Made by a program: the position numbers and the translations under genes
In this document: in pieces, positions 22,701-39,563 of the stretch
Layout of the letters: every line of letters begins with the position of its first letter
Numbering within the stretch: the first letter of the stretch is position 1
Origin: Onchidella celtica
Lineage: Eukaryota; Mollusca; Gastropoda; Systellommatophora; Onchidiidae
Assembly: GCA_963931925.1 (NCBI GenBank)
Contig: OZ007571.1
Span: 14,710,506-14,774,505, forward strand
Direction: 5' to 3'
Length of the DNA: 64,000 nucleotides
Notes under the pieces: generated by a model
What the model saw: the letters and a program-made list of their open reading frames with translations, nothing else
Told to the model about the DNA's origin: nothing
Databases searched by the model: none

Positions 22701-25700
22701 TTCTTACTTGTTGGTAATGTTGTGTGAGCAATGTGCGTGTGTGTGGTGTGCGTTAAAGACTTGTAGGTCTTAGATATTGTATTTGCTGTTGTACTGTTAC
22801 TGATGCTGTGACAACAAATTTCCTGGAAACAAGATAATAAAGGCATATCTTATCTTACCTTATCTTATCTTAAATCACAAAATAAATAGAAATGAACGGG
22901 ATAACCAACAAGCTCAGAAAGGATAAAAATTGCATGTATACAAAAACAGAAGCCATACAGCTTAGAATAGCATGGCACAAAGAGGCATGCAACTGGTGTT
23001 AGGAAATCCAGGAGCAATCTCCGTCTATCATGTATGTCACTGACTACAGATAATTTTAAGTAAATGCCATGATGACAAAGGCAGAACTGATTTTGATAAG
23101 TATATGTAATAATGTAAAATTCCCATTATGAACACAGCAGAACCTTTTGCAAGAGTTTTTAGCAAACTGGCATTTTTTAAGAGTTATGTATCAAGTTATA
23201 TATGTGTAGCCGCCCAACTAAATGAGGCACATTTTGGTACTACCTGATTCGTCAAAAGGCATCAGAGGGTCAATTTTATCGATTTTACATTTTCAATATT
23301 TTTAAAAGTTTAAACTCTTCACTATTCCTTTTTCAAATGATAATCCTGTTTAAGAAGGGTAAATGCCTCAAATTTGTCTTTGAATTGAGTCACCATCAAT
23401 AATTTTGATGAAAAGTTGAAACTTTAAAAGCGTTTTTCTCAAAACTGTGGTTGTGTCACTTTCTGTCGTTGATAGGCCATAATCTTCTCTGTTAATTAAA
23501 TTACAGCAATACTTTTTTAAACCAAACTAGATGAAGTTCCCGACATTATCCAGGATAAATCTATGAACCCACCATTCTATCTATCCCTCTCTCTCTCTCT
23601 CTTTAGTCTACAAAGCTTCCCATATTCTGCAGTTTTACTACAGATTCCATGCTCTCCAGAGCATTATGTACTCATTTCTGCTAGGGAAATTGTGTGCACG
23701 GAAGTGAATGTGTATTAATACATTGTTTCCGGTGCGGTGGGCTTACCACAGGGAGCCAAAACAAAGATAATTGTATTTTACATTTTTACAACTTTTTATT
23801 CAAAAATACCTGAAACTTGAATCAACACAATCGGTCGATACAAAAGCGATTGGACTGGATTTGTTGACACTTGGGAAAATTAACATTGTAATTGTTGAAA
23901 CTATCATTTAGGCTGTAGCATGGAATAAAAAAAAAAGGCCAAAACTGCACCACAATCTAATTTTTCTATCTCACAAACTATGAAACCACTCTGCAATAAA
24001 TATTTCCATCTCTAAGTTTCCTATCTCACAAACTTGAAAGAATAAACAATAACATATCAAACTGTTTCCATCTACACCTCATATGACGACACTGATCTTG
24101 TTGGTCTTATAGACTATTCTTATTGTTCCCTATTTTCAAGTTTACTGTACTTGTCAAGGTGGATTTGGTCAGTGTCTAGATTTTTGTTTCTCCTTTCCTT
24201 TCTAATCTGAGCTCACCTGGAGTTGATGATCTGTAGAGACTTGAGGGCCAGAGTGAGCCATGTATCTGTCAGCGTTTCTATCTCTTGTCTCAGTTGTATC
24301 CACTGTTCTCTTTTCTGTGGACCCAACAAACCTGCAGCAAAAGATGGACAGAACACAAAAGAATGAGTACGGAAGTATGGAAAGCATTTAACATATGGCC
24401 CTGTCCATATGAAAAGTATTTCTGACATTTAAAAAATTGCATAATAAGGACAGATGCTCTATCACTGTAACATCAAGCACATCTATTCAAAATTCTGCTA
24501 CTGCATTCTTGTTATACCAACTGAATATCTTAACGATTTTAAAAGCAATTATTGAAAATTGATGATTATTAATAGAGCTAATTTTACAATAATTATATAA
24601 TAGCAAAAAAGTTTGTTGATCATAGGCAAAAATGCTCTGTTTATCTGGCTCAACAAAATTTCCGTAGTTGATGTTTAGCCGTTTATAATTAATGAAATCT
24701 TACTATAAAGAACAACAGTGGCAGGTTTGTTTCATTGGGGTGCAATCTTGGCCCTTTTTATTTTTGTTGCTCAGCGCTACACCCTAAACGTGAGTTTTAA
24801 AAATTGTAAAATCAATTTCCTTAAGTGTCATCTAAGCTAATTTAATCTCTCCTTGTATTACCCTATTGTGTTTATTCAAGATTTAGCCAATCTTTTAAAA
24901 TGTTGTTATGATGGTGAAAATACAATTTATTTTTTTGTTCATGTGACAAGCCCAGCTCATGGGAGACTGTACTTCATGCAGGTTCAATCTGGTGCAATTT
25001 AAGTAATGAACATTCATACGTGAACATGATAAATGAACCAGGTAGCTAGATGCTCTGGGCCACTGATTATATCGCATGGGCCATCTTAACACATGAGCAC
25101 ACTGCACAGTTGCTTGGAGACCCCAAAAGTTTAGGGGACCCCGGGCATGCAAATTTCTCAGTAGTAGTAGTGTAGGGGCAGGCCCCAGTGTATTGCTTTG
25201 CCCAGAGGCCCATAGTGACGTAGAGACGACTCTGCATAATAAACTCAATACTTTAAGTTGTACTGACCCCCCACATTGTTCCTATAACTGTTGTAAATCT
25301 CCTTCATCCGGCGGTATCTGAAGGCCAACTTCCTCATCCAGTCCACACCACCGCGGACGCCCGTGGCAAGGCAGAGGTTGGCGTTGTTGGCCGCAGCATG
25401 GAAACCGTCTGTGGCAAAGTTGTAGTTACTGAGGATGAAAACACAACAGGAAATTTTAATTAAGACTGGCAAATTTGGACTGATTGAGAAAGCAATTGGA
25501 AATTAACATGTAACGTGGCACAAAAGTGGTCTTTACAAGGAAAGCGAATGGTGAGTAAAGAAGAGCGAAGTAGCTGGGTGCGACAGTATGAAAATCAAAA
25601 GCATTGAATCGTAGGAAAAGAGCTGGGACTTATGATGAAAAAAATAATCGATAATACAAATTACAATGAGAGAATACCAAAAAAAAAAAGGGGAAGCAGG

Positions 25701-39563: not shown

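Follow-up and report, generated by a model that had tools for sequence, protein, structure and literature searches.

The repeats analysed here are one family of canonical non-autonomous Helitrons of about 450 bp, inserted between A and T, and their head-to-tail arrays have very probably been built by repeated, oriented insertion of new copies into the 5' ends of resident ones. The element itself is an ordinary kind of transposon. What is unusual is its habit of stacking, which leaves a readable record. The window, by which is meant the whole 64,000-nucleotide stretch of Onchidella celtica DNA that was analysed (G000:C5:14710506-14774505), belongs to a genome of 1.14 Gb in 43 contigs.

Copies of the repeat in the window

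The initial annotation had described five copies of a Helitron-like repeat in and around the introns of eya. Comparison of the window with itself confirms that the five repeats form one family, and that they are real and well above chance: positions 36753-37212 match 39205-38741 (inverted) at 83.9% (E 1.7e-143), positions 23526-23956 match 37197-36790 at 81.8% (E 3e-121), and positions 24691-24996 match 36746-37048 at 71.7% across 314 bp (E 7.6e-34). Several of the boundaries, strands and copy structures nevertheless had to be revised, to give the following features, in which a slash marks the edge of an element. The ends were read directly from the sequence.

23527-23956, minus strand: Helitron-N copy in an eya intron, about 36 bp of the 5' end decayed; 3' CTAG at 23527-23530, then T; 81.7% identical to the copy at 36754 over query positions 37-443
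24698-24996, plus strand: old copy in an eya intron, starting A/TCTTACTATAAAG and without the 3' third; 71.2% identical across query positions 1-295
36754-37196, plus strand: full-length single copy, A/TCTTATTATAAA to CTAG/T flank; 3.4% from the family majority
37168-37196, plus strand: 3' terminus, with hairpin TCCCGG-GTAATG-CCGGGA, 7-nt spacer ACTTCAT, and CTAG
38757-39204, minus strand: upstream monomer of a two-copy head-to-tail array, starting TCTTATTATTAAA and ending CTAG
39205-39209, minus strand: TCTTA scar ahead of the array, with the host A at 39210
38756-38757, minus strand: array junction CTAG/TATTATAAAA, of the offset +3 type
37899-38756, minus strand: downstream monomer of the same array, split by a TIR element
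38121-38485, no strand: inserted TIR element, CACAGACTAATAAA to TTTATTAGTCTGTG, foreign to the Helitron

The copy originally placed at 23527-23960 was correctly taken for a Helitron, but it ends at 23956, lies on the minus strand and has a decayed 5' end. The copy given as 24698-24900 does belong to the family, but it is an old plus-strand copy that lacks its 3' third and extends to about 24996. The stretch 37899-38756 is one copy, as had been proposed; its splitting at 38121-38485 by the TIR element had been missed, as had the fact that this copy and the one at 38757-39204, both of them genuine, make up a single minus-strand array behind a TCTTA scar at 39205-39209. The TIR element has an imperfect 8-bp duplication (CAGGGAGC/CAGTGAGC, 7/8 matching), and a pattern made from an internal 30-bp segment of this element is matched at 1,980 places across the genome.

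The copy at 36754-37196 reads A/TCTTATTATAAAAAAAAATAGTGG...TCCCGG-GTAATG-CCGGGA-ACTTCAT-CTAG/T. It is the least diverged among the 71 full-length copies described below, 30 loci having been fetched for their likeness to it.

Five peptide pieces match the EYA domain NCBIfam TIGR01658 (E 6e-19 to 6e-5), each of them below the whole-domain cut-off because the pieces are single exons. They lie on the minus strand at about 33.0, 25.35, 24.3, 22.4 and 21.6 kb. These exon matches flank the copies at 23.5 and 24.7 kb, which are therefore intronic, and it is for these two copies that the setting in eya is borne out.

Other repeats in the window include a tandem block at 29399-29925 with self-matches above 80%, a dispersed pair at 12847-13064 and 59307-59524 that is 86% identical, and two palindromic stretches, perhaps fold-back elements, at 32705-32909 and 35696-35830, with 80% and 90% identity to their reverse complements.

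Ends, size and class of the family

The family is far larger than the five copies first supposed. The exact 5' end ATCTTATTATAAAAAA has 1,307 matches in the genome (reversed control, 27) and the exact 3' end CCGGGAACTTCATCTAGT followed by T has 1,422 (reversed control, 0), counts from which older copies are missing if their ends have mutated. When two window copies were used to search the genome, 65 and 58 matches resulted from the best 40 of 4,139 and 5,289 candidates respectively, and in 31 of the first 40 rows of one search the match spans the element from its first to its last base. The 55 family loci are the best matches to these two copies and not a random sample. With the window added, and without L001 and L009, which cover the window again, the loci yielded 71 full-length copies, with a median length of 454 bp and a median divergence from the majority of 5.8%.

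The 3' end is CTAG, in keeping with the CTRR rule, in 63/71 of these copies, and the next base is T in 68/71. The GC-rich hairpin has a 6-bp stem and a 6-nt loop and is followed by a 7-nt spacer, the 34-nt majority 3' end folding at -10.9 kcal/mol. The A/TC start, the hairpin and the CTAG/T end had all been recognised at the outset; the eight-base spacer given with them is obtained only with a 5-bp stem, and becomes 7 nt with a 6-bp stem. Single copies start A/TC, except for L011, L025 and L028, which have damaged 5' ends. Both flanks are available for 24 single copies (the 29 single-copy edges without L033, two edges from L089 and two from the window), and 22 of them have A before and T after the element. 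The two exceptions, a C/T and a G/T case, are L011 and L025, both with damaged 5' ends. No constant target-site duplication was found, the flanks of these 24 copies agreeing in 3, 2, 1, 0 and 1 cases for k = 2 to 6, and no terminal inverted repeats were seen in the family. Neither boundaries away from TC and CTAG nor target-site duplications were seen as a rule. The original reading as a non-autonomous Helitron is thus upheld by the A/T flanks, the CTAG, the hairpin and the lack of a constant duplication.

One informative empty site was found among the family loci, at L035, where a copy lies inside a TIR element whose relatives include the element that interrupts the fourth copy of the window. 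The unoccupied site is ACCAATCTTGAC and the occupied one ACCAA/.../TTGAC. There is no duplication, as expected, but the site is two bases (TC) short of a simple AT insertion, TC being either lost or common to host and element. The site pattern has 1,980 matches, and in all of the 53 listed with their letters there are two bases between ACCAA and TTGAC, these being TC in 50.

Array junctions and their orientation

Head-to-tail arrays occur in the window, where 38757-39204 is followed by 37899-38756 on the minus strand, and at many of the family loci. In the genome as a whole, the exact 3' end followed after 0-10 nt by TATAAAAAA is found at 230 places, and the reversed control at none. By an arithmetic estimate, some millionths of the genome consist of 5' termini, and far fewer than one such place is expected by chance. 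Among the 100 junctions listed, 72 are exact splits of the 5' end: 40 read CTAG/TTATAAAAAA (offset +5), 20 read CTAG/TATTATAAAAAA (offset +3, an insertion between T and T) and 12 read CTAG/TCTTATTATAAAAAA (offset 0). One of the 28 that are not exact fits +2, one fits +6, and 26 are of other kinds, some perhaps not involving the element's own ends. The +5 form alone occurs 80 times in the genome. The pattern is blind to offset +8, and no +8 junction is present among those read from the family loci. Seamless junctions are compatible both with insertion at offset 0 and with circles that have joined ends. Five +3 junctions lie on one strand within 180 kb (G000:C1:80029160-80208113), perhaps as a segmental duplication.

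The AT target is the same on both strands, and free insertion should therefore give inverted copies as often as direct ones. The inverted counterpart of the junction (the reverse complement of the 5' end, 0-10 nt, then TATAAAAAA), a pattern which covers one of the two junctions of an inverted insertion, is found at a single place in the genome, and there the letters in the gap do not suit a split 5' end. At L033 a minus-strand copy does lie between two pieces of a plus-strand copy, bordered by TA and GA repeats and with about 600 bp of other sequence alongside, which is not a simple case. Inverted nesting outside the 5' terminus is thus not impossible.

Scars ahead of the arrays

If a newcomer splits a resident end as TCTTA/TTATAAA, then TCTTA must remain in front of it. 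The corresponding pattern, ATCT-N0-2-TCTTATTATAAAAAA, is found at 223 places in the genome and its control at none. Among the 100 rows listed there are 49 with TCTTA, 16 with TCT, 20 seamless CTAG/TC junctions and 15 others, and the ratio of 49:16 resembles the ratio of 40:20 for the junctions, both among the matches listed. A scar is present at 18/28 array edges as against 3/29 single-copy edges (Fisher p 2.8e-5), the pattern having been composed after the data were seen and two edges that fit neither class having been excluded. Two of the three scarred single-copy edges belong to one rearranged array (L089), and 10/28 array edges have no scar by the pattern used. At L089:225-1149, read on the minus strand, the host flank AAGGTAAATAAATCTTA stands ahead of both neighbouring copies.

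In the part of the genome from C1 to C7, and among the matches listed, junction and scar could be paired one monomer apart in nine single-step cases, with 11 other pairs being of another type or farther apart. The types agree in 7/9, which alone is not significant (Fisher p 0.23). Discordant arrays are that of the window (TCTTA scar, TATTATAAAA remnant) and that at L089, both of which combine a +3 junction with a TCTTA scar, a combination that requires either a variant resident end or a ladder of insertions. Where a split junction has no scar, as at L080 and L082, the array may be a dimer that was transposed in one piece, starting from the inner TC.

Kinship and age of array members

Copies that are duplicates of each other should have rare variants in common, and a newcomer at the front of an array should be younger than the copy behind it. 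For 37 adjacent pairs from the family loci and the window, several of which come from the same array and are thus not independent, the mean difference is 0.122, as against 0.123 in permuted pairs (sd 0.0025, P 0.36). In 26/37 of these pairs, divergence from the majority is lower in the upstream copy than in its mate (Wilcoxon p 0.008). Array mates appear to have slightly more rare variants in common than non-mates, with averages of 0.41 and 0.26 out of about 12.8 per copy. In a comparison of nearest-relative ranks in 14 adjacent pairs, mates were not closer than pairs from different arrays (p 0.86); this was superseded by the permutation test, since every array had contributed one member chosen for its likeness to the query. 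A star-like burst would hide kinship even between mates copied from a single circle; the distance test therefore has less force than it seems to have, and is not decisive alone.

Alternative explanations

The scars, the junction offsets, the lack of kinship between mates and the polarity of their ages favour self-insertion over rolling-circle concatemers. In the latter explanation, read-through of a circle with joined ends yields several copies in a row, and this concatemer then enters the genome as a single piece. This accounts for the head-to-tail order and for the seamless CTAG/TCTTATTATAAA junctions (12 of the 100 listed junctions, and 20 of the 100 listed scar-pattern rows), and mates appear to have slightly more rare variants in common than non-mates; moreover, the same process has been put forward for Helitrons in bats (according to PMC2267711) and in plant centromeres (according to PMC12628747). 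However, 60 of the 100 listed junctions miss exactly TCTTA or TCT, those same bases precede 18/28 array edges, mates are no closer than permuted pairs, and in 26/37 pairs the upstream member has diverged less, and we consider rolling-circle read-through to be unlikely. Slightly less likely again is an origin of the arrays in recombination, whether between a Helitron circle and a homologous resident copy or, by unequal crossing-over, between copies. Homology would fix the orientation, the circle version needs no likeness between mates, and seamless junctions are predicted, some of which exist. Offsets of +3 and +5, which make up 60 of the 100 listed junctions, are not predicted by recombination, and nor are the scars.

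Two further explanations concern the nature of the repeat rather than of its arrays, and both are highly improbable. Were it a transposon of another class, such as a Helentron or HINE, a SINE or a MITE, the +3 junctions could be compared to those of Helentrons, in which insertion is between T and T and the 5' end is different. The TC 5' end, the 3' hairpin with its 7-nt spacer and CTAG, the A/T flanks in 22/24 single copies, and the failure to see terminal inverted repeats or a constant target duplication all argue against this. For Helentrons and HINEs specifically, T/T insertion with a different 5' end would be expected, against the A/TC starts and the A/T flanks in 22/24 that were observed. 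A satellite or tandem repeat, with TC and CTAG as mere monomer edges, would agree with the presence of tandem arrays, and medium-sized Helitron-derived repeats are known (PMC3833285), but it would not be expected to occur as single copies with differing flanks and the fixed ends A/TC and CTAG/T, nor to be inserted into a TIR element of known unoccupied form.

Rep/helicase Helitrons and a proposed model for insertion

A profile search with PF14214 gave 290 candidates, of which 150 were scored and all 150 matched, so that there are at least 150 Rep/helicase matches in the genome, with open frames reaching 1,516 aa. Loci were made from 30 of the 150 scored matches (L039-L068), and many of these fall into groups that are 98-99% alike over about 3 kb, which implies that they moved recently. 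As judged from their sequences, they are recently active autonomous Helitrons. Their 5' ends form two groups, A/TCTATATAATAAAG and A/TCTATACAAAAAAA, only loosely like TCTTATTATAAAA. Their 3' ends were sought in 14 loci (L069-L074 and L092-L099, the positions of L098 and L099 being estimates) and obtained from 10, the remainder being L073, L074, L094 and L098. All 10 have a CGTTC...GAACG hairpin and then CTAG/T, with a spacer of 7 nt in eight and 9 nt in two; L070 also has a second 3'-end candidate, CTGG/T. The architecture of the ends is therefore the same as in the small family, but the hairpin is different, and the hairpin of the small family is absent from all 10 ends. Of the autonomous partner with the same 3' end that had been suggested as a target for searching, the Rep/helicase Helitrons with A/TC...CTAG/T ends are present in the genome, while an identical 3' end is absent from the 10 that were read.

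At L048:1-80, a Rep/helicase element starts directly after CTAG/TCTTAT. A pattern combining the 3' end of this element with a remnant of the small family's 5' end is found at one place in the genome, C30:22235-22262, about where it would be expected, and a wider pattern gives 12 rows at about 10 places. In this one case, a Rep/helicase Helitron appears to lie inside a small-family 5' end, in direct sense.

We propose that the small family is mobilised in trans by a Rep/helicase Helitron, and that a sizeable share of its copies were inserted within the first five bases of a resident 5' terminus, in the orientation of the resident. The newcomer would split the terminus, so that TCTTA, TCT or nothing stays upstream and the remainder follows the newcomer's CTAG, and repetition of this would produce head-to-tail arrays, one insertion at a time. 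Rep bound at the resident 5' end may nick that strand as it would a donor end, with the incoming single strand then being joined to the nick. A strand-specific nick of this kind would explain the fixed orientation, despite the palindromic AT target. The more specific form of this model is that the resident 5' terminus is an oriented attachment site, where the transposase nicks one strand at 0, +3 or +5 and the nick acts as the acceptor; we would give this form an even chance of being correct.

Comparison with known systems

The closest resemblance in the structure of the ends is to Helraiser and Helibat of bats, in which TC is joined to A, a hairpin and CTAG are joined to T, and the target is AT (PMC4778049). 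Circles with joined ends form during Helraiser transposition, and the distribution is described as random, without local hopping (PMC4778049). The present family differs in being non-autonomous, in its size of about 450 bp and in often inserting into its own 5' end.

Head-to-tail neighbours have been described before. For adjacent maize Helitrons both models have been stated, with consecutive insertion being favoured in one case (PMC2267711), and maize Helitrons prefer to insert near or inside other Helitrons (PMC3288121); multiple termini have also been reported (PMC2267711, PMC3288121). Tandem Helitrons of Myotis have been put down to a rolling circle (as told in PMC2267711). In the sources available these are single or few cases, as compared to the 230 junction-pattern places, three main offsets, scars and orientation contrast reported here. 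Proposals for FoHeli of Fusarium include insertion of the element into itself close to the 5' end, and multiple 5' termini, with one tandem triple left undecided between insertion and rolling circle (PMC5148889). FoHeli are non-canonical fungal elements, in contrast to the canonical family described here, and no count of orientation or offset is given in the portion of that paper available to us. Tandem arrays of Helitrons in plant centromeres, likewise head-to-tail, were ascribed to a rolling circle (Xiong et al. 2016, according to PMC12628747). There the copies are truncated and many arrays have several 5' ends and one 3' end (PMC12628747), whereas here the monomers keep their own 3' end within arrays and the mates are not close kin. 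The literature searched, in which coverage was partial, contained no count of orientation, offset or scars for tandem Helitrons, and the accessible parts of PMC13286980 and PMC3789558 hold nothing on arrays formed by self-insertion. Within that literature, neighbouring Helitrons and the choice between insertion and rolling circle are already published.

The earlier argument on the origin of tandem Helitrons, whether as concatemers or by consecutive insertion, was built on few cases in the sources available. With hundreds of junctions in one genome, and with scars that record the order of events, this origin becomes countable, and the layers of an array might be put in order by means of scar ladders. 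Should the Rep-nick reading be correct, a strand-specific nick at a Helitron's own 5' end can be a target, which bears on how Helitrons choose their targets. If the resident 5' terminus is indeed an oriented attachment site, transposition in this family would be partly site-specific and orientation-specific, and a dispersed transposon would be turned into satellite-like arrays without rolling-circle amplification.
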